64,000 nt of DNA from Paracoccaceae bacterium (GTDB taxonomy: Bacteria > Pseudomonadota > Alphaproteobacteria > Rhodobacterales > Rhodobacteraceae): contig JANQRE010000020.1 in assembly GCA_028284705.1 (NCBI GenBank), positions 56,372 through 120,371 on the forward strand, read 5' to 3'. The notes under the pieces are model-generated. The model saw only the letters and a list, made by a program, of their open reading frames with translations, ran no database searches and was not told the origin of the DNA. Below are positions 31,487 through 44,971 of the stretch, one piece after another. Numbering within the stretch: position 1 is the stretch's first letter; each line of letters begins with the position of its first letter. A program made the position numbers and the translations under genes.

Positions 31487-33490
31487 TTATTTCGACAGGC
31501 TCTCGGCCAGACGCATCAGCGAGATCGCTTCATTGCGATACCCGAACCGATCCTCGCCACGGGTCGCATTTGCCAGCGCGATGGCATCGCCAAAGCTCCA
31601 GCTGCCGTTATAATCCGAGCCCTGCAAAAGCTGACCGAAGCCCGCGATAGCGGCGGCAAAACCCGGCGCTGCGGGCGTCTCCGTTGCCGCAATCGGTGTC
31701 TCGATGAGCTGGCTCGTGGTCGCGCCCGGCACCTTGTAGCGCAAGCGCAGGAAGCCAAGCTCATCGCTCGCGGCATTCGCCACGACCGGCTCGCCATAGC
31801 GCAGCGGATCGTTCAGAAGGGCGGGAGAGCCCACCGGCGTCACCTCATAGAGTGCTGTAACCTGATGGCCCGCGCCAATCTCTCCGGCATCAACACGGTC
31901 ATTGTTGAAATCTTCGCGGTTCAGCGCGCGGGTTTCATAGCCGATCAGCCGATATTCCGCGATCACCGACGGGTTGAATTCCATCTGGATTTTCACGTCC
32001 TGGGCGATCGGGAAGAGCGCGCCGGACAGCTGATCCACCAGCACTTTGCGGGCCTCTGAGAGCGTGTCGATATAGGCCGCCTGACCATTGCCGTTCTGCG
32101 CCAGCGTCTGCATCAACGCATCGTTCAGATTGCCGCGTCCGAAGCCGAGGATCGAGAGATAGGTACCGCCCTCGCGCTTCTCCTCGATGAAACGTGTCAT
32201 CTCATCGATGCTCGAAAGACCGACGTTGAAATCGCCATCCGTGGCGAGCAACACGCGGGAGACATCGCCGTCTTCCGCCATCTGCGCGGCCAGCGCATAA
32301 GCGTCGCGCAGCCCCGCCGCTCCGGCGGTGGAGCCCCCGGCTTGCAGACGTTCGAGTGCAGCGGTGATCACGGCGCGCTCGGAGGCGGGCGTCGGGCGCA
32401 GGGCGATACCGGAGGTTCCCGCATAGGTCACAATTGCCACCTGATCCTCATCACGCAGTTCCGGCAACATCAGCCGAAAGCTCTGGATCAGCAACTGCAG
32501 CTTATCGGGCGATTGCATCGAGCCGGACGTGTCGATCAGGAAGACCAGATTGAGCGGCGGGCGATCTGCGATTTCGGGCAATGTGCCCTGAATGCCGATC
32601 TCCACCAGTTGCGTGTCCGTGTTCCAGGGCGTCTCGGTCACACGCACCTGTGTTGAAAACGGCGCGTCACCAGTCGGAGCGGGATAGTCGTAGGAGAAGT
32701 AATTCACCATCTCCTCGATCCGCACGGCCTCGGGCGCGGGCAATTGCCCGCTCTCTAGAGAGCGGCGGACCCAGGCGTAGGAGGCCGTGTCCACATCGAT
32801 GGAAAAGGTCGAGACCGGTTCTTCGGAGGTGATCTTCACCGCGGCGATATCCGCCTCCGCAAACCGGTCTCTCTGCTCGATCCGTTGGCCGGGGACGGGG
32901 TCTGGAACGGGAGCAGGTGCGATGAGGGCCTGTGGGGCGAATTCGTTGCTGACTGCGCCTGCCACTGCGTCGAGGTCGCGGGCGCGGTTTGTTGCGGTGG
33001 CCTGCAGACTGCGCTGCTCAAGGCGCCTGAGCGGAGCCTCTTCGCTCAACTCCATGGGAGCTTCGGCATCTGCAATGCTGAGTGTTTCTTCACGACGGTC
33101 GACGTCATCGACCTCCATCGCAACCTCAGCTTGTGCGGCTTTCGACGCTTCGGTCGTCACGCGGCTCAGGTTTTCCCCGACCACAGCCGGTTCGACCACC
33201 GGACCGGTCGGCGCAGAGTTTTGCACGAGCACCACGCCGATCCCGACGATCACGAGAGAGGAGGTGGCCAGAAGCGCGGGGCGGAGATTGTTTAAGAATG
33301 TCATCGCAAGTCCTTTCAGAAATCCGGGCCGGGTGCCCGGTTGCTGAGAAGGACGCATGACGGGGTCGCGTTCTTGGAGGCGTGCGAAATTTTCTTCTGC
33401 CATCCGCAAGGTGGTCTCCTTGCGTGCGGGATCAGGCGCGGGCGTGGCTTTCAGCGCCTCGGTGAGCTTTTTTAGATCATCGTCGGACAT
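31487..33490 (-). CDS. membrane-anchored VWA domain protein
   Basis: The 667-residue protein (ATG 33490) has a cytoplasmic N-terminus of about 70 residues, one membrane segment at about residues 72-90, a Pro/Ala/Glu linker, and a von Willebrand A domain with the metal-ion site DTSGSMQS (VFLIDTSGSM). The C-terminal region belongs to the YfbK-type VWA family. Its start overlaps the sigma-factor stop (TGATG). The soluble N-terminus could act as an anti-sigma domain, but no known anti-sigma motif is visible. Confidence 0.85.
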   Translation of the reverse strand: MSDDDLKKLTEALKATPAPDPARKETTLRMAEENFARLQERDPVMRPSQQPGTRPGFLKGLAMTFLNNLRPALLATSSLVIVGIGVVLVQNSAPTGPVVEPAVVGENLSRVTTEASKAAQAEVAMEVDDVDRREETLSIADAEAPMELSEEAPLRRLEQRSLQATATNRARDLDAVAGAVSNEFAPQALIAPAPVPDPVPGQRIEQRDRFAEADIAAVKITSEEPVSTFSIDVDTASYAWVRRSLESGQLPAPEAVRIEEMVNYFSYDYPAPTGDAPFSTQVRVTETPWNTDTQLVEIGIQGTLPEIADRPPLNLVFLIDTSGSMQSPDKLQLLIQSFRLMLPELRDEDQVAIVTYAGTSGIALRPTPASERAVITAALERLQAGGSTAGAAGLRDAYALAAQMAEDGDVSRVLLATDGDFNVGLSSIDEMTRFIEEKREGGTYLSILGFGRGNLNDALMQTLAQNGNGQAAYIDTLSEARKVLVDQLSGALFPIAQDVKIQMEFNPSVIAEYRLIGYETRALNREDFNNDRVDAGEIGAGHQVTALYEVTPVGSPALLNDPLRYGEPVVANAASDELGFLRLRYKVPGATTSQLIETPIAATETPAAPGFAAAIAGFGQLLQGSDYNGSWSFGDAIALANATRGEDRFGYRNEAISLMRLAESLSK

Positions 33491-34032
33491 CAGATGCCCT
33501 CCTTCTCGGCCAGCGCGCGGAGGTGTTTTTTCACTTCCGACATGCGCCAAGCGATTGTGCCTTCGCTGAGACCCAGCACCTTCGCGGCCTCAGCTTGTGT
33601 TAAATCTTCTCCGAGGGTTAGCGCGACCGTGTCGCGCAATTCCTCGGGCAATGTGGTCATGGCGCGTGTGAGCCAATCTTGCGCCTCGCGCGCCTCTTCC
33701 GCTTCTGCCTCGCGGCGTTTGAAATCCTCTCCCCAACTGGCCCGTGCCTTCGCGCGCCTTTGAGCTTTGCGGGCCCGGTCTGTATTGGCGTTCATCATCA
33801 CGCGGTAGACCCAGGTGGTGAATTTCGCGTCCCCCCGGAACGATCGCAGTTTCACGGGCAAGGCGGCGCAGATGTCGTGACAGAGATCCTCGGCCTCGTG
33901 CCGCGAGCCTGTCAGCCGCCAGGCGAAACGGAACATGAGATCGTAATGGCGTCGGATCAGAAGGCCAAAGGCCTCCCCATCCCCGGAAGCGGCGGCAAGC
34001 GCCAAAGCTTCATCACTGGTTCTCATGCGCAT
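33490..34032 (-). CDS. ECF-type RNA polymerase sigma factor
   Basis: This ECF sigma factor has region 2 (EAFGLLIRRHYDLMFRFAWRLTGSRHEAEDLCHDI) and region 4 (LPEELRDTVALTLGEDLTQAEAAKVLGLSEGTIAWRMSE). I give ATG 34032 (180 residues); 34026 or TTG 34062 are alternatives, as no clear ribosome site is seen. It is coupled to the VWA gene downstream. Confidence 0.88.
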   Translation of the reverse strand: MRMRTSDEALALAAASGDGEAFGLLIRRHYDLMFRFAWRLTGSRHEAEDLCHDICAALPVKLRSFRGDAKFTTWVYRVMMNANTDRARKAQRRAKARASWGEDFKRREAEAEEAREAQDWLTRAMTTLPEELRDTVALTLGEDLTQAEAAKVLGLSEGTIAWRMSEVKKHLRALAEKEGI

Positions 34033-34085
34033 AGTGATGGTAGGACGACGCGGAGGCGTCAATCCTTGGGAGAAAGATCGAAAAA

Positions 34086-36646: not shown

Positions 36647-36665
36647 ATGTAAATCATAGTTACAT
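36647..36665. promoter_or_regulatory. palindrome upstream of the ten-gene cluster
   Basis: ATGTAA (36647-36652) and TTACAT (36660-36665) form an inverted repeat with a 7-base spacer, 21 bases before the ATG at 36687. It could be an operator or a promoter element. No regulator gene is in the cluster. Confidence 0.4.
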
Positions 36666-36686: not shown

Positions 36687-37763
36687 ATGTCCGATTTTGA
36701 CGCTCAGGTGCGCGAAAGCCAGGCTCAGGTGGAGGAGGCGCAGGCCAAAATCCAGGAATTGACGAGCCGCATTGAAACCGCGCGCAGCAAGCTGAAAACC
36801 GGGGATGATATCTCCATCGACATCGAAAACGCCTCGCTTGAGGATGTGCATGCCCATACCAAGCTGATGGATGGCAATATCGCCGATCTGATCATGGGGT
36901 TGGACGAGGTGACCGCGGGTTTCTCGAAGGACTTCGACGAGATGCGCGACAAGACCGGCTGGGAAAGTTTTGTCGGGATTTTCTCGAACGCAAAGTCCGA
37001 GAGCATGCGTCAGGAACGCATGCGCACCGCCTCCGTAGATGACAAGCTACAGGATTTGATTTCGAAATCCGACACCATCGTGGCGCTTCTGCAAGGCCAA
37101 CTGACCATGCTGGAACAGCAGAAAGTCAAGGTTGAGGGAAATCTGACCGAGACGCTGGATGAGCGCGAACTGACGGTTGGTGAGCTGGAAACCCTGCGCG
37201 CGGACATTCTGGCCATGGACCCCAAGCTGATCGAGTTGGAGAACAAGATCTCCGTCGAACAGGATGCCGCGGCGCGCACAAAGCTAGAGACAGAACTGGC
37301 GGAGGCGAATGCGAAATACAACGAGATGGTCCAGCAGGAGCAGGTGAAGCTCGCCAAATCGCAAACGCTGGAGCGCTATATCGAGAAGGGTAAAACCTGG
37401 ATAGACTCGCTGCAGAACCAAGCCGCGACGCAGATGGTGCTGATCAACAAGCTGGAGACCGATACCAAGCAGCGGGTTGTTTTGTATGATGCGCTGACGA
37501 AATCGTTGAAAACGGCGCAGCAACAGGATGTGGCGCATAAGATCAACGAGATCGGCGTGCAGACCGACCAGGAGGCACAATCCGCTATGGCCGGGATCGG
37601 CGCGGCCACCAACAAGCGCATGGCCGAGATGATGGAAGCGCACGAAGACCAGATGGTCTTTGCCCGCAAGGTGCTGGAGCAAAAGGCGAAAGCCGATGAG
37701 CGCTTTGCCCGGCGGTTCCAGGAAATCGTCGAGAAGCACGACAAGAACCTCTACGGATCCTGA
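36687..37763 (+). CDS. coiled-coil protein, first gene of an unassigned cluster
   Basis: This 358-residue protein is almost entirely charged heptad helix (Glu/Lys/Gln-rich segments throughout), with no membrane helix or signal peptide. The start ATG 36687 follows GAGGGATGG. The end of the protein (QEIVEKHDKNLYGS) has no recognisable motif. It could be a scaffold or filament for the AAA+ ATPase two genes on, and resembles the toxic-anion-resistance type only in general shape. I could not assign a family. Confidence 0.7.
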   Translation: MSDFDAQVRESQAQVEEAQAKIQELTSRIETARSKLKTGDDISIDIENASLEDVHAHTKLMDGNIADLIMGLDEVTAGFSKDFDEMRDKTGWESFVGIFSNAKSESMRQERMRTASVDDKLQDLISKSDTIVALLQGQLTMLEQQKVKVEGNLTETLDERELTVGELETLRADILAMDPKLIELENKISVEQDAAARTKLETELAEANAKYNEMVQQEQVKLAKSQTLERYIEKGKTWIDSLQNQAATQMVLINKLETDTKQRVVLYDALTKSLKTAQQQDVAHKINEIGVQTDQEAQSAMAGIGAATNKRMAEMMEAHEDQMVFARKVLEQKAKADERFARRFQEIVEKHDKNLYGS

Positions 37764-37766
37764 TCT

Positions 37767-37970
37767 TTGGCCACGACGCTCAAGCCAAGGCATATCGTTC
37801 TGGCGGTCTGTGCGCTCGCCGTGCTGATCCCGAATGATGGCTGGCGCGCGCTGTTCGGCGAGGCGTGGCGCATGGCCATTTGGGTGCCGCTGGGGCTGGG
37901 TCTTTTGCTTCTGTCCTATGAGGTCTTTCTCGCCGGTCGTGCACGGGGTTGGTTCGGGAGCGGGAAGTGA
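37767..37970 (+). CDS. 67-residue membrane protein of the cluster
   Basis: Two hydrophobic segments lie near residues 7-20 and 31-50 (LRHIVLAV... and ...WVPLGLGLLLLSYEVFLAG). The start is TTG 37767, four bases past the coiled-coil stop. Its end overlaps the next start as GTGA (37967-37970). Confidence 0.6.
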   Translation: MATTLKPRHIVLAVCALAVLIPNDGWRALFGEAWRMAIWVPLGLGLLLLSYEVFLAGRARGWFGSGK

Positions 37971-39097
37971 CGGAAAAGGTTGATCTTACACGCGACCATG
38001 CGGGCATCACCGATGACCTCGCCGCCCGTCGCTATTTCGCGAAGTTCGAGCGGATCACCGGCCATCTCGCGCGTGTCGCCGCGGAGATGGAAAACGAAGG
38101 ATCGCTGTCGAAAACCGATGTCGGTATCATCGCGGATTACGTGCAGCGGATTGCCAATACGTTCCGCTCACTCTCCTACAAATATCTTCTGACGGGACGT
38201 GATACGGGCACGTTTTTCGGCTCGCTGGAGATCGACCGACATGAAAGCGGCTTTCCGGTCTTTCCCGAACTGATGCGGATGGCCAATGACGCGCAGCAAG
38301 CGGAGCGGCATCTGGACGGCATGCCGTCAAAAACGGCGCTGAAAGATCAGATGATTGGCCAGATCGTCGGTGATCTTACCATCCCGACAAAGCTGCAATT
38401 CGCGCTGTCGCAGCGTCTCTATTACGAGGCCATGGCGGCGGGGGAGTTGTTCTGGCCCACCAATGACGCGCAGGCGATCTGGCAGGGCAATTCCGAGGAG
38501 CGGCGCGCCTATCTCTTGCATTGGGCCGTCTATGACAGCCAGCAGAATATCCCGACGATTTACCTGATGGACGTCGAGGATTCCGGTGACACGGCGTTGC
38601 CCAAAGACCAGCGTCGTTGGCCCTTAGCGCAGGCGCATCTTACGGCGCAAGCATCGGGCGGGCTGAAGCTTCTGACCATCGCGCAAGGCTTTGATCGCGA
38701 TTTTGACGACCTGCATCCCAAGCGCCTGCGACGCCTACATGTGGGGCCGATGTATTCCTCGGCCTTCACCCGCCAAACCGGCCCGATCCGCGAGGTTCTG
38801 GAGGAGGCGCAAAGCCCGATGGGCGAGGATTGGACGCTGGCCTGGACCCATGAAGAGCTGGTCTCCGAACGGGTCGAGTTGGAAAAGAAGGGCTGGTTCT
38901 CTTCCGTCGAGCGCGAGATTTTTAAGCTTGATCCGTTCTCGGGCCGCGGGGCGGAGACAGGGGCAACGCGTATCTCTCGCTCGATGATCCTGCCGGAGCG
39001 TCCGTATCAGGTGATGGCAGAGAAGAACCCACCTGGGTTCGCTGGCGTTCGGAAATTTGTTGTCAGCCCGTCGGGTAGGGTGGTGAGCGCCCGCTGA
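37967..39097 (+). CDS. 376-residue soluble protein of the cluster, unknown
   Basis: The product begins MTEKVDLTRDHAG from GTG 37967, with GGGAGCGGG as ribosome site. It is mixed helix and strand with a Trp/Tyr-rich middle (FWPTNDAQAIWQG, AYLLHWAVYDSQQNIPTIYL). There is no signal peptide or clear motif. It lies directly upstream of the AAA+ gene and may be an adaptor or substrate-binding partner. Confidence 0.7.
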   Translation: MTEKVDLTRDHAGITDDLAARRYFAKFERITGHLARVAAEMENEGSLSKTDVGIIADYVQRIANTFRSLSYKYLLTGRDTGTFFGSLEIDRHESGFPVFPELMRMANDAQQAERHLDGMPSKTALKDQMIGQIVGDLTIPTKLQFALSQRLYYEAMAAGELFWPTNDAQAIWQGNSEERRAYLLHWAVYDSQQNIPTIYLMDVEDSGDTALPKDQRRWPLAQAHLTAQASGGLKLLTIAQGFDRDFDDLHPKRLRRLHVGPMYSSAFTRQTGPIREVLEEAQSPMGEDWTLAWTHEELVSERVELEKKGWFSSVEREIFKLDPFSGRGAETGATRISRSMILPERPYQVMAEKNPPGFAGVRKFVVSPSGRVVSAR

Positions 39098-39142
39098 TCT
39101 GTGCCCGAAACGGAACTTTTTTGATCAATAATGGAGTAAGAT

Positions 39143-41077
39143 GTGAGCCAATCCGCTGATTTCATGGAGCTGAAAGAGGACGACATTCGCGCCCATTACG
39201 AGGCGGCGGTGTCGATGCTGGACGGGCTCGACCACACGCCACGCATCGCGACACCGAAGGCGCCGGAAGCCACCGAACGCTCGGCGGGCGTCTCAACCGG
39301 CGCGCGGCGGTTTCGTTCCACCACGCGTGGGCTGGTGACGCGCTCCACGGCGCGGCCTGAGGGCGTGCGCTTGATCGACCGGGTCGAGGGCATTGGCGAG
39401 GATGCCCTGCCCACGGCGGGGCAGGCGGCGGTGTTGCAGAACCTTCGCCGCGCCTTGGCGATCGGGCTGGCGATTGGCGATCAGTTTTCCGAGGCCACGG
39501 GGCTGGTGGAACTGAAGAAGGAAAACCTCGAAGGGCGGCTCTCGGACGCGAAGAAATCGGAATTCGGCGAACTGCTGGCGGCGGAAGCCCTGGCTGTGCT
39601 CTACGCTTTCGGCAACGCGACGGCTTACTTGCTGGCCCCGTCGATGACCGAAGTCACCGTCGAGATCGGCGCTGTGGAGGAAATCCTCACCGACAACGCG
39701 CAACTGGCTTTGCACGGCGCGATGTGGGAGTTGGATCAGGAACTTGCGCTCTTCGCCACCGACGAGACCAAGATCGCCGCCACCGTCTCGGCCTATGTCG
39801 AGCAGCTGATGGAGAAGGTCTCGCTGCGCGCCCAGAACACGCCGCGGCTGGATGCCTTCACATCCGCCTCATACCGGATCGAGGCGGATGACTTGACGAT
39901 CAACGGCTTCACGCCCGCGGCGAAGGCCAAGGGCACGACGCTGACCATGACCTTCAAACAGCCCAACGAGGTCGTCGGCAACCACATCGCCAAATACCAG
40001 GCGATGCGGCTTTCCAAGATGATCATGGCCTATGATTTCGACCGCAAACTGAACCCGTTCGTCGATCTCGGCGGCTTCATCTTCACCTTCATGGGCGACG
40101 GCAAGCCGGGTACGGGGAAGACGACGCTCATCCAGATGATGGCGGGGATGATCAACGAGTATTGCTCAGTCGCGGGCTATCCGTTCCGCTACCAGAACCT
40201 CTCCACCGACAATATCGACAGCTATCAGGGTAAATCCGGCCAGAACGCAAAAGCGTTCATTAACAATGTGATAGACCCGTCTGTCATTGGGTTTGGCACG
40301 ATTGACGACATTGACCAATTGGCGGGCAAACGCGGCGATCGTCAATCCTCTGCCGGTCAGTTGGAGATCACGGCGGTGCTGATGGAAAGCTTCGCCGGGG
40401 CCAATACCGTGGTGCGCGGGAACTGCACGTTTGGGATGTTCTCCAACTATCCTGAGAACGTGGACGACGCGCTCCGCCAACGGGCCGGCGCGCGCTTCCT
40501 CGTGGACGGGCCGATCACGCGCGACGACTATATCGACATCCTCTACCTGCTGATGGGCAAGAACCACGACATCCCGCTGGGCGATCACGAGGCCTATGCG
40601 GCGCAGCAGATCCAGAAGGCCGTCGCGGCGTCGTTCGAGAGCCACAACAAGCCCCATGAAGAAGGGCTGATGAAGGTGTTCGACCGGGTGCATTCGGAGA
40701 TCGGCGAACTCGACACGATTGCCAAGATGGGCACCTATCTCAAGGGCATTCAGGAGGCCGATGAACGCTTCACGGGCCGCGCGATCAAGAACATCACCGA
40801 CGCCGTGAAGGTCCGCGCGATGGATTTCGAACTGCCGGACGAGTGGATGGAGAACCCGGAGTTGTTCCTCTTCAAAACCTACGACGAAAAGCGGGACATG
40901 ATCGCCGAGCTGCGCCAGCCGATCACGACCGAAATGGTGATCCAGGAGATCAACCGCTACGCGGATTCAGAGTTCCGCTACGCCGACAAGTCGGACGAGG
41001 TGGCGATTGACGCCATGGTGCGCGACTTCGGCCGTCAGGAGGAGGCGAAGCGGCGGTATTTGGAGAGTAAGGGGTGA
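39143..41077 (+). CDS. AAA+ ATPase of the unassigned cluster
   Basis: The 644-residue protein has an extended N-terminal region (to about residue 300) and a AAA+ module: Walker A GDGKPGTGKTTL at 318-329, Walker B-like VIGFGTIDDID at 381-391, sensor-like FSNYPENV at 433-440 and arginine-finger-like ALRQRAGAR at 443-451. The C-terminal part is helical. It is the only energy-using protein in the cluster. Its last bases overlap the next gene (GTGA). Function may be remodelling of membrane-bound partners; this is inference. Confidence 0.85.
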   Translation: MSQSADFMELKEDDIRAHYEAAVSMLDGLDHTPRIATPKAPEATERSAGVSTGARRFRSTTRGLVTRSTARPEGVRLIDRVEGIGEDALPTAGQAAVLQNLRRALAIGLAIGDQFSEATGLVELKKENLEGRLSDAKKSEFGELLAAEALAVLYAFGNATAYLLAPSMTEVTVEIGAVEEILTDNAQLALHGAMWELDQELALFATDETKIAATVSAYVEQLMEKVSLRAQNTPRLDAFTSASYRIEADDLTINGFTPAAKAKGTTLTMTFKQPNEVVGNHIAKYQAMRLSKMIMAYDFDRKLNPFVDLGGFIFTFMGDGKPGTGKTTLIQMMAGMINEYCSVAGYPFRYQNLSTDNIDSYQGKSGQNAKAFINNVIDPSVIGFGTIDDIDQLAGKRGDRQSSAGQLEITAVLMESFAGANTVVRGNCTFGMFSNYPENVDDALRQRAGARFLVDGPITRDDYIDILYLLMGKNHDIPLGDHEAYAAQQIQKAVAASFESHNKPHEEGLMKVFDRVHSEIGELDTIAKMGTYLKGIQEADERFTGRAIKNITDAVKVRAMDFELPDEWMENPELFLFKTYDEKRDMIAELRQPITTEMVIQEINRYADSEFRYADKSDEVAIDAMVRDFGRQEEAKRRYLESKG

Positions 41078-41613
41078 AGGATCGCGGCCCTTGGCATAGC
41101 GCTGATACCGTTGGCGGATGGACCAATCACTATTGGCGCATGAAACGCTGGAGTGAAGCTGCACGAAAGGCATCGTATATTCCTGCCCATGAAACAGATG
41201 AACATCTCCGCGCTGATGATTTGTTCCTGAGCTATTGTATCTGGGCGCACTCGCTTCTTGAGTGGATAGTCACGGACCATCCTGAGTTGGCCGAACAAAT
41301 CAAGAAACATGTTTATGGGCGACCCGAATGGGACATGGTTCGAAGCTTTGCAAATCGTACTCGGCACTTTGACCAGTCAAGAAATCCTATGCCCAAAGAC
41401 ACATACTGGCGATTGTTCAGAGTTGCGGTTCCTTTTTCAAAGCAATTGAAGGGGACCGACTTTGTCGAATGGGTTGTTTACTACGACGGCAAAAGGCACG
41501 AAGTCGCGAGCATTGTCCGAAATATAGATGAGATGTGGGACAATATCATCGAACAGATGGGCCTAGACCAAAATCAAATTCCCGATGAGTTGAAGGTCGA
41601 TGCGGAAGGTTGA
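41074..41613 (+). CDS. 179-residue protein, possible insertion into the cluster
   Basis: This gene has lower GC and different codon use from its neighbours, and the downstream DNA holds palindromes. The product has Trp-rich helices and NRTRHFDQSRN, reminiscent of the N..RHF pattern of some HEPN-like proteins, but I cannot confirm the domain. Start GTG 41074 overlaps the AAA+ stop. It could be a later passenger riding on the AAA+ transcript. Confidence 0.55.
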   Translation: MKDRGPWHSADTVGGWTNHYWRMKRWSEAARKASYIPAHETDEHLRADDLFLSYCIWAHSLLEWIVTDHPELAEQIKKHVYGRPEWDMVRSFANRTRHFDQSRNPMPKDTYWRLFRVAVPFSKQLKGTDFVEWVVYYDGKRHEVASIVRNIDEMWDNIIEQMGLDQNQIPDELKVDAEG

Positions 41614-41628
41614 TCTCCATTCCTGTTC

Positions 41629-41705
41629 CGCGGCGAAGCCGCGATGCGCCCGACCCGCCCCCACGGGCGGGCGCATTCTGCACCGACCCTCGGGCCGGGC
41701 GCATC
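41629..41705. repeat. palindrome cluster after the inserted gene
   Basis: A small hairpin, CGCGGC-GAA-GCCGCG (41629-41643), is followed by three copies of one motif: GATGCGCCCG (41643-41652), then in inverted form CGGGCGCAT (41668-41676) and CGGGCGCATC (41696-41705). The first and third form a bounding inverted repeat. It resembles a REP-type element marking the right end of an insertion. Confidence 0.55.
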
Positions 41706-41727
41706 ACGTCTTCTGTGAGACAACCGC

Positions 41728-42348
41728 TTGAATGAGCCTACCCACATAACCCGCGTGCCATGGGCGCTCCTCATCCTCGGCATGGCTGCGGCCTATGTCG
41801 CGGCGGGGCAGTTGCAGGATACCGGGCTGCTCTCGATCACGCCGCCGCCCTCTGAATTCCATCCGGTGAACCAACCGGACGCGATTGGCCGTGAGTTCTG
41901 GCTGCATCTCTCGGCCTACACGGCCTGGGTGACGACGCTCCTGATCATCCCGGCCTTCCTCTTTGTCTGGTTCGAGGACCGGGCCCCCGATTGGAAAGCC
42001 TTCTGGGCGGCGGGCTGGATTGCCTATCTCATCCATCTAGGCGTGGCCATGTTTGGGTTCTTCGAAAGTGACTACGAATGGATGACCACCTCCTCCCGCG
42101 TATCGGCCTTCTGGCCGGGGATGCTTCTGGCGGTCTGGTGGGGCCTTGATCTCGCGCTGGCAAACAAAACCCACCCTTGGGTCACGATCCAACGGTTCGG
42201 CGTGCATCTGATGGCTTTCGTCCTTTTCTTCGGCGGCTCAGCCATCAAGGGCGAACTTCTCACGATCCAGATCATCGGCTACGCTTTGCTCGCCGTCACG
42301 CTCATCGCCGCGATCCGCTGGCTTGCACAGAGGAGGGCTGCATCATGA
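41728..42348 (+). CDS. 206-residue polytopic membrane protein of the cluster
   Basis: About six hydrophobic segments (near residues 12-30, 66-87, 97-118, 129-145, 158-175 and 181-198) give an inner-membrane topology. The start is unclear: TTG 41728 or GTG 41755; no ATG fits and a stop lies just upstream at 41716. The end overlaps the next gene as ATGA (42345-42348). Confidence 0.65.
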   Translation: MNEPTHITRVPWALLILGMAAAYVAAGQLQDTGLLSITPPPSEFHPVNQPDAIGREFWLHLSAYTAWVTTLLIIPAFLFVWFEDRAPDWKAFWAAGWIAYLIHLGVAMFGFFESDYEWMTTSSRVSAFWPGMLLAVWWGLDLALANKTHPWVTIQRFGVHLMAFVLFFGGSAIKGELLTIQIIGYALLAVTLIAAIRWLAQRRAAS

Positions 42349-42659
42349 TCGCCACACTTCTCACCGTCTGGTGCCTGCCGATCCTGATCGGGATCTGGCT
42401 GGGCATGTGGCAAGGGCGCCGGCCCGCCATGACGCCGGGCGAGTTTTTCAAACATATCGGCACGGCGATCCTCTTCGCCGGCTGCATCATCTTCATGATC
42501 CAGATGATCCTTGTTGGTGCACTCATGGTCGGACTTGAAGGTGGCATGGTGGGCCTTGGTTCGGAGGCCTGGCGCTGGACCTTCTATACCGGCGCGCTGT
42601 GGCTTCCCTGCCTCGTCATCTCCTATATTGTCAAAGCGATGCAGGAGAAGCGCCGATGA
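42345..42659 (+). CDS. 104-residue membrane protein of the cluster
   Basis: The product has three hydrophobic segments near residues 2-20, 38-62 and 80-97. ATG 42345 overlaps the preceding stop and the end overlaps the next ATG (ATGA, 42656-42659). The longer frame upstream is the shadow of the previous gene. Confidence 0.65.
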   Translation: MIATLLTVWCLPILIGIWLGMWQGRRPAMTPGEFFKHIGTAILFAGCIIFMIQMILVGALMVGLEGGMVGLGSEAWRWTFYTGALWLPCLVISYIVKAMQEKRR

Positions 42660-44005
42660 TGCGGCTCATCGAAAAAGGGTTGATGTACGGCAACCTCTTT
42701 CATGTGAACTCCCCTGCCTTGGCGGAGCGCTATAACCGCGCGCTGAAGCATCTGACCGGTAAAGAGACGAAGCTGACGGACTTTCATATTGATATCTCCG
42801 GCTATGCGCCCGAGATCGGGGTGGAACTGGATGACCCGCTTTATCTCAATCCCAACGGTTGCAACCGGCAGTTCATCCTGCTGTCCACCGATCAGAAAAC
42901 CGCGCCGCTTCTGGAGGCGAAGTTTTCCACCTCCCGCTCGATCCTGCGGCACTTCATCGAAGAGAACGAAGCGCAGCTTTTTGCCCTGACGGCCCGCGAT
43001 GCGGTGGCGGGCGAATTGGTGAATTCTGTCTACACGGTCTCCAAGGCCGCGCATCTCTTCGACATCCGCAAAATCCGTATCGAGGCGGACACGACCGGCG
43101 GGCATGTGCGCGAAGCCAACAAGCTGGGCGACATGATCGAGGAGTTCCGCACCCGCGAGGATGCGTGGTGGGATGATGTGCTGATCGCCGACATGATTAC
43201 TCTGGCGAAGTCGACGGGCGATGTGATGCGGCAGCCGATTTCGCTAAAACAGACCACCTTCGATCAGGAGAATTTCTGGACCTCGCATTTCGGCGGGCTC
43301 TATGTCTTCCGCACCTTTGAAGAGCCGGCGACGATTGCGGTCACGGGCAAGTCCGATCTGGGAAAACTACCTACGAAACTGACGCTCGGGTTCCATGAGC
43401 GTAACAAAATCGCTCAGTTCCTCGACGAAAATGATCTGGTCGAACCCATCGTGAAAGCCAAGGGCGTGAATGCCGTGGCGATCCTGCGCCAGAAGCTGGA
43501 TTTCATCGTCGTCGATGTCGCGGCAACGATGGAGGCAACGGTCGAGAATGCCCGTCGGCAGGACTTGCGCCAACTGGCCCGGAAATATGCTGAGCTTCTG
43601 CCGCCGGAATTTCACACGCTCAACAAGCTGCTGCGGTGGGCGGAAGGCGGCGGCCCCTGGCCTCGGATCACCTCCAACGACCCGGCTTATTTCTACACTC
43701 TGCGCGCCAAACCGCACGAGGATCGCGACCTGATCAACATGTTGCTGGCGGAGCTGTCGCCGTTGGATGTGCGCCAGCTCTTCATTTGTCACAAAGAGCT
43801 CTTCTACGCGCTCTATCGCGGCTGGCCGGATCAGAAGAAGGCTTTCGTTGCCGATTTCCTTGAGCGGGAATATCAGGTGGACAAGGCAGGTGCGCGAAAG
43901 GCACTCTTTGGCGATGCGTCCATGGAAGAAGAGTTGGATGCAGACGGCCCGGACGATCTGGTGGATATTGTCGGGCCCTGGGGCGCGGTCAGGAGGGGAA
44001 GATGA
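42656..44005 (+). CDS. 449-residue soluble protein of the cluster, unknown
   Basis: The protein starts MMRLIEKGLMYGNLFHVNSP and is mixed alpha/beta, with several charged helices (RALKHLTGKETKLTDFHIDIS) and ERNKIAQFLDENDLVEP in the middle. No membrane helix, signal or known motif is seen. Overlaps on both sides couple it to the membrane proteins. With the AAA+ ATPase and the 376-residue protein it is one of the three large soluble parts of the cluster. Confidence 0.7.
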   Translation: MMRLIEKGLMYGNLFHVNSPALAERYNRALKHLTGKETKLTDFHIDISGYAPEIGVELDDPLYLNPNGCNRQFILLSTDQKTAPLLEAKFSTSRSILRHFIEENEAQLFALTARDAVAGELVNSVYTVSKAAHLFDIRKIRIEADTTGGHVREANKLGDMIEEFRTREDAWWDDVLIADMITLAKSTGDVMRQPISLKQTTFDQENFWTSHFGGLYVFRTFEEPATIAVTGKSDLGKLPTKLTLGFHERNKIAQFLDENDLVEPIVKAKGVNAVAILRQKLDFIVVDVAATMEATVENARRQDLRQLARKYAELLPPEFHTLNKLLRWAEGGGPWPRITSNDPAYFYTLRAKPHEDRDLINMLLAELSPLDVRQLFICHKELFYALYRGWPDQKKAFVADFLEREYQVDKAGARKALFGDASMEEELDADGPDDLVDIVGPWGAVRRGR

Positions 44006-44271
44006 TTTTTGGGATAATCCGGCTTGCGGTGTTTGCCTTTCTGGTGATGCTCATCGTCTATTTCGCGCTCTCCTGGTGGTCACGCTCGGTGCGCCGTTCG
44101 AAACTGGAGGACGAGTGGGACGAAGAAGGCATGACCGGTGACCGCGAAGCGTTCATCGAACAGGGGTTGGCGGATTATGATGGCTCGCTGCGCCGCAAGC
44201 TGATCTTCGGGGTTTTTGTGGTGCCCTATCTGGTGATCGGCGTGCTCATCTATGTTGTGAACTTTCAATAG
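44002..44271 (+). CDS. 89-residue membrane protein of the cluster
   Basis: It has two hydrophobic segments, near residues 4-22 and 68-86, with an acidic loop (KLEDEWDEEGMTGDREA) between them. ATG 44002 overlaps the preceding stop (ATGA) after AGGAGGGGAAG. Confidence 0.6.
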   Translation: MIFGIIRLAVFAFLVMLIVYFALSWWSRSVRRSKLEDEWDEEGMTGDREAFIEQGLADYDGSLRRKLIFGVFVVPYLVIGVLIYVVNFQ

Positions 44272-44284
44272 GTTAGGCTGAGAT

Positions 44285-44971
44285 ATGCTCTATGTGAAAC
44301 GCGCTTTCTGGACCCTCTTCTGGGTGCTTCTGATCGCTTTCCTGCACTATACTTTGCCGCAGCGCGATGTAGCGCGCGTGGTCGAGACAGAAGTGCGCCG
44401 GGTCGATTTCGGTGAGAACTCGATCTTCTGGGCGTCGCCGGATACCGGCCAGGAGGTGGGCGGCGCCAATCGCGATGTGCGGTTCATCAATGCGGTGCGC
44501 AAACAGACCTATTTCTTCACGCTGTGGCGCACGGATGCCGATGACGTGATGGTCTACCGCAACGAGGATACCGGCTGGGGCTGGCCGCCTTATTTCAAGC
44601 TGGATTCCTCGAACCTGCAGACCGAAGCGGCCGATCTGGTGAGCCCTGCGGCCGATCCGCAATGGGTCATCATCACCCATTATGGCTGGCGCAACGAATT
44701 CCTGTCGATCTTCCCGAATGCGGTCGGCATCCGTGCCATTGACGATCCGAATGTGCGACTGATCCCATGGTTCAATATCATCATTCTGGTCTGTCTGGCC
44801 GGGCTGATGCTTGGGTTCTATCGCCTAACTCAGTGGTTCCGGCGCGAGAAGATCGATCCGATCGTAGAAGGTGCCGGCGAGACCTGGGACAGCGTGGATG
44901 CCTATGCCGATGAGAAGCGCAAAGGGTTTCGCGGTTGGCTCGACACCTGGCGCGGGAAGCCGCGTAAGTAA
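44285..44971 (+). CDS. 228-residue membrane-anchored protein, last of the cluster
   Basis: One N-terminal helix (residues about 7-22) and one near residue 165 (WFNIIILVCLAGLMLGFYRL) bracket a domain with YGWRNEFLSIFPNAVGIRAID, probably periplasmic. It starts 13 bases after the preceding gene. The cluster ends here and the next gene runs the other way. Confidence 0.65.
   Translation: MLYVKRAFWTLFWVLLIAFLHYTLPQRDVARVVETEVRRVDFGENSIFWASPDTGQEVGGANRDVRFINAVRKQTYFFTLWRTDADDVMVYRNEDTGWGWPPYFKLDSSNLQTEAADLVSPAADPQWVIITHYGWRNEFLSIFPNAVGIRAIDDPNVRLIPWFNIIILVCLAGLMLGFYRLTQWFRREKIDPIVEGAGETWDSVDAYADEKRKGFRGWLDTWRGKPRK

Follow-up and report, generated by a model that had tools for sequence, protein, structure and literature searches.

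A conserved six-gene AAA+ operon of Rhodobacteraceae with two variable gene slots and a possible role in envelope remodelling

Do ten neighbouring genes that fit no named system belong together, and what might they do? The question is raised by a 64,000-nucleotide (nt) stretch of DNA, called the window here, from a Paracoccaceae bacterium with a genome of 4.04 Mb (family Rhodobacteraceae in GTDB; assembly GCA_028284705.1, contig JANQRE010000020.1, positions 56,372 to 120,371). Ten open reading frames (ORFs), g1 to g10, run in the same direction at window positions 36687-44971, and a preliminary description, made from the letters alone, had proposed them as a ten-gene unit, an ATP-driven membrane machine matching no named system. 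Comparison with related loci shows that the conserved unit is a six-gene operon, g1-g3-g4-g8-g9-g10, that includes an AAA+ ATPase, and that the remaining four genes sit in two variable slots: g2 in slot 1, between g1 and g3, and g5, g6 and g7 in slot 2, between g4 and g8.

Results

Six of the ten genes are conserved in order

The cluster of ten plus-strand frames is real, and its neighbourhood was surveyed in 80 Rhodobacteraceae loci, the best 80 of 459 from a scan of named genomes. The order g1-g3-g4-g8-g9-g10 was found in 73 of them, and five of the seven exceptions (L074, L081, L110, L123 and L125) stop at contig edges. Both g9 and g10 were present in 74 of the 80 loci, the identical set to those with g8. 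The other four frames seldom recurred, with BLAST (E 0.001) finding g2 and g5 in none of the 80 related loci, g6 in three and g7 in two. As a unit, the ten genes do not hold up: only six of them are conserved, in an order that recurs elsewhere, and g2, g5, g6 and g7 fill variable slots. Because the gene set recurs in the same order in other genomes, it lies above chance, and the lack of co-occurrence that would have spoken against a common unit did not appear.

The conserved core consists of g1 (36687-37763), a 358-amino-acid (aa) coiled-coil protein predicted to be all-helical; g3 (37967-39097, 376 aa), a soluble protein of no named family; g4 (39143-41077, 644 aa), the AAA+ ATPase; g8 (42656-44005, 449 aa), a DUF6638 protein; and the two membrane proteins conserved in Rhodobacteraceae, g9 (44002-44271, 89 aa), with two transmembrane (TM) segments, and g10 (44285-44971, 228 aa), of family DUF1523. 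TM segments were called with a simple hydropathy window, and none was predicted in the window's g1, g3, g4 and g8. Above its cut-offs Pfam named three of the ten proteins, namely the AAA domain of g4 (PF00004, E 2.3e-12), g8 as DUF6638 (PF20343; 734 bits, E 6e-221, model positions 1-439 of 439, gathering cut-off 27) and g10 as DUF1523 (PF07509, E 6.6e-65), and NCBIfam gave zero matches above cut-off for all ten. The four-base overlaps reported earlier are present at g2/g3, g4/g5, g7/g8 and g8/g9, and g6/g7 also overlap by four bases if g7 starts at the ATG at 42345.

Conservation of the four large genes extends well beyond the family. Twenty of 299 genomes from across the phylum were found to hold DUF6638, and surroundings were taken for 16 of these, which represent the same family, further families of its class and a second class. 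The order g1-g3-g4-g8 was kept in all 16; g10 could be recognised in 11 of them and g9 in 10, with neither in five f10 loci. The protein g1 was 70.5-81.2% identical across the nine loci of the same family, and the same four genes were seen in two more genomes from other families. A protein search of plasmid records found g4 in 10 records (Sinorhizobium, Rhizobium, Shinella and large Vibrio replicons), and g1, g3 and DUF6638, their alignments confirming the partners, flank it in the order g1-g3-g4-g8 in three annotated regions, two on Vibrio replicons and one in Sinorhizobium meliloti; the Shinella plasmid record carries no annotation from which gene order could be read. The four large genes thus keep their order from Alphaproteobacteria to Gammaproteobacteria (Rhizobiaceae, Vibrio).

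Presence of the AAA+ gene is closely tied to that of DUF6638. With one genome taken from each of 120 Rhodobacteraceae genera, DUF6638 was found in 54 genomes and g4 in 50, every one of which also holds DUF6638. In the four genomes with DUF6638 only, the gene lies at base 529 of its contig (G705), the genome is 76-77% complete (G728 and G754), or no explanation was apparent (G766). Class-wide, at least 7 of 385 genomes hold g4, a lower bound as three candidates per genome were scored. In the genome of the window g4 is single-copy.

The AAA+ motifs of g4 are intact

The Walker A motif had been placed correctly at residues 318-328 of g4. Walker A, Walker B, sensor 1 and the arginine fingers are all intact, and residues G320, G323, K326, T327, D388, D389, N435, R445 and R447 are invariant in 94 of 94 rows of an alignment that includes the g4 of the window twice. 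The AlphaFold 2 (AF2) model of g8 is confident (predicted local distance difference test, pLDDT, 85.6) and had no match in the PDB at E 0.001, and the model of g1 shows helices at residues 4-38, 51-99, 103-190 and 194-352, with a mean pLDDT of 68.9. No publication on DUF6638 was found in the literature searched, and the literature on DUF1523 deals, judging by its titles, with other matters. Pfam, NCBIfam and PADLOC assign the core genes to no named system, which supports the earlier statement that they form a functional set without a named counterpart.

Unrelated genes fill two fixed slots

The junctions of the operon differ in length. The g1-g3 junction has a median of 267 nt and reaches at least 150 nt in 51 of 78 loci, and the g4-g8 junction has a median of 740 nt and reaches this length in 69 of 74; for g3-g4 the median is 70 nt (at least 150 nt in 8 of 78), and for g8-g9 and g9-g10 the medians are 1.5 and 11 nt, with no junction of 150 nt or more in 74 loci each. 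In the window, slot 1 holds g2 (37767-37970, 67 aa), a small membrane protein with a predicted TM segment, and slot 2 holds g5 (41074-41613, 179 aa), a soluble protein, followed by the membrane proteins g6 (41728-42348, 206 aa, start codon uncertain) and g7 (42345-42659, 104 aa). Among 5.77 billion proteins, in a search that requires shared five-residue words, the orphan g2 found only itself and g5 found one relative. The 'possible insert' of the preliminary description proved to be g5, with a low G+C content (48.7%) and third-position G+C (GC3, 51%), against 54-64% and 72-83% in the remaining genes. Judged by the locus, the closest named relative is an uncultured Litoreibacter with a g4 91% identical, and similarity between the window and the locus of the closest relative (L061) stops exactly at the g4 stop codon.

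Slot ORFs were at first taken at 45 aa or more in slots of at least 120 nt. An ORF ending beside the g3 start was found in slot 1 of 42 of 78 loci, and a TM segment was predicted in 36 of these ORFs, which split into 30 groups at E 0.001. Compared all against all, the membrane-type slot-1 ORFs matched in 9 of 630 pairs, and 630 of 630 pairs matched for every one of the six core genes; among these is g9, which resembles the slot-1 ORFs in size and has two TM segments. Overlaps with the next core gene are frequent, with four bases shared with g3 in 14 of the 42 slot-1 ORFs and eight bases in another 14, and four bases shared with g8 in 32 of 58 slot-2 ORFs. Even in the 40 closest pairs of loci, with g4 95.5-98.3% identical, the slot-1 proteins were unrelated in 37.

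Nine pairs picked by hand were compared at slot 1 on the DNA level: five had no slot-1 similarity, one had a 54-nt stretch and three had a homologous occupant. In four of the five pairs without similarity (Ruegeria and Tateyamaria), the flanking 300 nt of g1 and g3 were 90-95% identical; in the fifth (L089/L126) the g1 flank was 84% identical, and a g3-flank identity of 0.25 was taken as a wrong start choice. We read this change at slot 1 as probable replacement and not fast drift.

Where occupants have relatives, they look like real genes, and the substitution pattern suggests purifying selection. The ratio of nonsynonymous to synonymous substitution rates (dN/dS) was 0.05-0.30 in 21 of 23 pairs and undefined in two; these pairs were the 23 most similar under 97% identity out of 72 matching, came mostly from one slot-2 family (2 of 23 from slot 1), and several of their dS values were saturated. 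A later selection required at least 60 or 75 aa and excluded frames that lie over the g4 tail and lack a TM segment; it held 156 ORFs, and 12 were removed by hand as likely spurious, leaving 144 for family scans. Nine Pfam and eleven PADLOC families were matched by one member each, with toxin-antitoxin genes and restriction nucleases among them. Slot 2 of S. meliloti (L152:12106-13851) contains genes for a DUF559 endonuclease and for the transposase of ISRm16. At this same locus a DUF2333 gene comes after DUF6638.

A folded DNA element recurs in the slots

Between g5 and g6 in slot 2 lies a GC-rich, low-copy element of 78 nt (41629-41706, plus strand) that folds into several hairpins (z -4.1). 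By BLAST in 81 sequences, window included, 10 of 12 copies lay in slots, and slots account for 5% of the bases. With 11 copies as its training set, a covariance model added five places at E 0.001, of which three lie within slots and two (L069 and L102) elsewhere; covariation was slight (2 of 18 pairs). Copies were found in L087, L072, L129, L131, L064, L134, L105 and others, including slots of other genera, and in the genome of the window a second copy lies on contig C43. Possibly a repeat or a recombination element, it was also seen on Leisingera and Sulfitobacter plasmids.

A palindrome is shared with DUF2852 genes

A palindrome of 19 bp, ATGTAA-N7-TTACAT (36647-36665), lies 40 to 22 nt upstream of the g1 start codon and is a putative operator. 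Of 78 upstream regions, taken from 77 loci and the window, 35 have an exact copy of its form ATGTAA-N7-TWACAT, which occurred 0 times in shuffles; with at most one mismatch it was present in 43, where shuffles, which moved two-base blocks, expect 0.08. Its usual position is about 60 nt ahead of the g1 start codon, just before a CCTATAT-like box; in the window it lies 40 nt ahead and after the box.

The genome of the window holds four exact places, and in the 120 genera a search with ATGTAAA-N6-TWACAT gave 60 places in 47 genomes, the backward control giving 2 matches. Twenty-five of the 60 lie within 500 nt ahead of a DUF2852 gene and 15 ahead of the AAA+ operon (14, and one before a g1 cut by a contig end). 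Eleven of the remaining 20 were examined: three, in different genera (L172, L184 and L190), lie where nitroreductase genes of one kind begin, one each is at a DUF4112, DUF4389, DUF2807 and chorismate synthase gene, and the rest showed nothing clear. DUF2852, found in 106 of 120 genera, has by eye a TM segment followed by a charged helix. A DUF2852 site occurs in 24 genomes, 13 of which carry the AAA+ operon and 11 of which lack it, so this switch also exists where the operon is absent. Since the operon and the DUF2852 gene lie apart, a shared trans-acting regulator would be the simple reading. No description of this palindrome or of a DUF2852 regulon was found in the literature. The palindrome ahead of DUF2852 is conserved (for example in L156, L166, L167 and L170), and in the genome of the window it stands beside an RDD-family gene. 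About 2.6 kb upstream of the cluster lies a minus-strand pair (31487-34062) that by eye encodes a 687-aa vWA-type protein and a 190-aa protein resembling an extracytoplasmic function (ECF) sigma factor.

Comparison with known systems

The six-gene set was compared with several known systems. Integron cassettes are likewise unrelated ORFs exchanged at fixed seams, some beside a folded DNA element, and are recognised by attC boxes (GTTRRRY/RYYYAAC); here, in contrast, two slots lie inside an operon. By eye no such boxes were seen in 11 aligned copies of the folded element, and no integrase gene was recognised by Pfam in the cluster, to which this search was confined. The AAA+ core of g4 is weakly similar to Pch2/TRIP13 of CBASS (PADLOC TRIP13, E 1.4e-5, residues 319-457). 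A Pch2/TRIP13-HORMA system was rejected, as no HORMA or CD-NTase model of PADLOC matched the ten proteins at E 1 or better. Across the known anti-phage systems of PADLOC-DB 2.0.0, this E value of 1.4e-5, for part of the AAA domain only, was the best for the ten proteins.

The closest published comparison is provided by operons in which PspA or Snf7 is encoded beside AAA+ ATPases, discussed, in the part of the paper available, in PMC11237479. Like the ESCRT-III/Vps4 and PspA/Snf7 operons described there, the present operon has a helical coiled-coil gene beside an AAA-family ATPase together with small membrane proteins, and it shares with them ATP-driven membrane work, which is only predicted here. 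Unlike them, it includes g3 and DUF6638, which find no counterpart in that part of the paper. In Pfam, g1 matched three other weak families, and neither Snf7 nor PspA/IM30 was among the matches listed (25 of 40 families; 19 members; E 1). None of the ten proteins matched PspA_IM30 of the Psp system, and the PspA of this genome is encoded on another contig (C35). At the sequence level, an N-terminal MIT domain, as expected of a Vps4-type ATPase, was matched at E 0.001 in none of 14 members of the g4 family.

Discussion

Our preferred reading, which we hold tentatively and at a little under even chances, is that the six-gene operon encodes an ATP-driven envelope-remodelling machine whose two slots hold unrelated genes in close relatives. 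The g4 protein would form the usual AAA+ ring, with g3 and DUF6638 as probable soluble adaptors; the ring may pull on or disassemble g1 coiled-coil assemblies at the inner membrane, and g9 and g10 could anchor the complex. The small membrane proteins of the slots would then serve as partners or clients that can be exchanged to suit the machine to each strain, and a putative dimeric regulator reading ATGTAA-N7-TWACAT might control the operon and DUF2852 in some envelope or redox stress. The ATP-driven membrane machine of the preliminary description thus gains from the invariant AAA+ motifs, the two conserved membrane proteins and the operator common with DUF2852, and as a machine it stays a prediction from sequence.

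Several observations weigh against this reading. The Walker B motif is IDD or VDD in 94 of 94 rows, with DD instead of DE and an aspartate at the usual catalytic glutamate, so that ATP turnover by g4 could be slow. The moderately confident g1 model had no match among PDB chains at E 0.001 or better. Profile comparison, which rested on shallow alignments, lent no support to a relation between g1 and PspA (hhalign probability 1.1), though the two may still be related at the level of the fold, the model pLDDT being 68.9. Tellurite and envelope stress genes of the TelA/XpaC type also combine a long helical protein with membrane-protein neighbours; g1, however, had no PF05816 match and an hhalign probability of 0.1 against TelA, again with shallow alignments, and the true TelA of this genome lies elsewhere (contig C34). 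Two loci away from contig edges depart from the order, L100 with g1-g3-g4 and no g8 in 19.9 kb and L101 with g4 alone, and 70 of 120 genera lack the AAA+ gene, which therefore cannot be a universal envelope factor. The exact operator is lacking in 43 of 78 upstream regions; a further 13 loci, 12 from outside the family, had no copy of the palindrome within two mismatches near g1 (best outside the family, three mismatches). An exact site at both the operon and DUF2852 occurs in 4 of the 120 genomes, with G067, outside that set, as a fifth. Finally, we infer the contacts of the core proteins with the membrane or with each other.

The slots could be passive insertion spots, in an ordinary stress operon that tolerates or attracts foreign genes unrelated to its core function. 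Foreign-type genes are indeed present, among them an Mrr-type restriction nuclease, a PIN-like gene and a Phd antitoxin (one member each of the 144 ORFs) as well as the DUF559 endonuclease and ISRm16 of S. meliloti, and the folded element recurs there; the predominance of TM-type ORFs abutting g3 (36 of 42), their short overlaps with g3 and g8, the signs of purifying selection and the absence of inserts from the g8-g9 and g9-g10 junctions argue the other way, and we consider this account rather unlikely. Still somewhat more doubtful is the idea of the operon as a chassis: an ATP-driven envelope machine that takes its partner or specificity from orphan membrane-protein cassettes, which replace one another from gene border to gene border at two fixed seams.

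An anti-phage or other conflict system, with the core as sensor or effector and the slot genes as fast-changing specificity or immunity parts, would explain the unrelated slot-1 occupants of 37 of the 40 closest pairs and the defence-like genes in some slots, and PADLOC weakly matched TRIP13 with the g4 AAA domain and, with g1, a type II restriction enzyme model (E 4.6e-4). This explanation is nevertheless improbable: the ten proteins had no stronger PADLOC match, g4 was found in 0 of 50,697 phage records and is single-copy in its genome, g1 is well conserved among same-family loci, and the operator ties the operon to the widespread DUF2852. Least probable of all is a soluble AAA+ protein that serves as chaperone or assembly factor in the maturation of another complex, with the membrane genes as passengers. 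The four proteins kept outside Rhodobacteraceae, g1, g3, g4 and g8, do lack a predicted TM segment in the window, but g9 and g10 accompany g8 in the same 74 of 80 loci, and the shared operator predicts co-regulation with DUF2852.

In the literature searched, no publication was found on hypervariable small-membrane-protein cassettes with an AAA ATPase in Rhodobacteraceae, and three of the four most widely kept core proteins belong to no characterised family. The operator defines a concrete regulon, comprising the operon, DUF2852 and in some genomes a nitroreductase, and gives a direct handle on the regulator. A rigid operon in which unrelated membrane-type genes interchange at two seams between near-identical strains is a natural experiment on how new small genes join a machine; if the chassis idea is true, it would be an undescribed kind of cassette-programmed AAA+ system.

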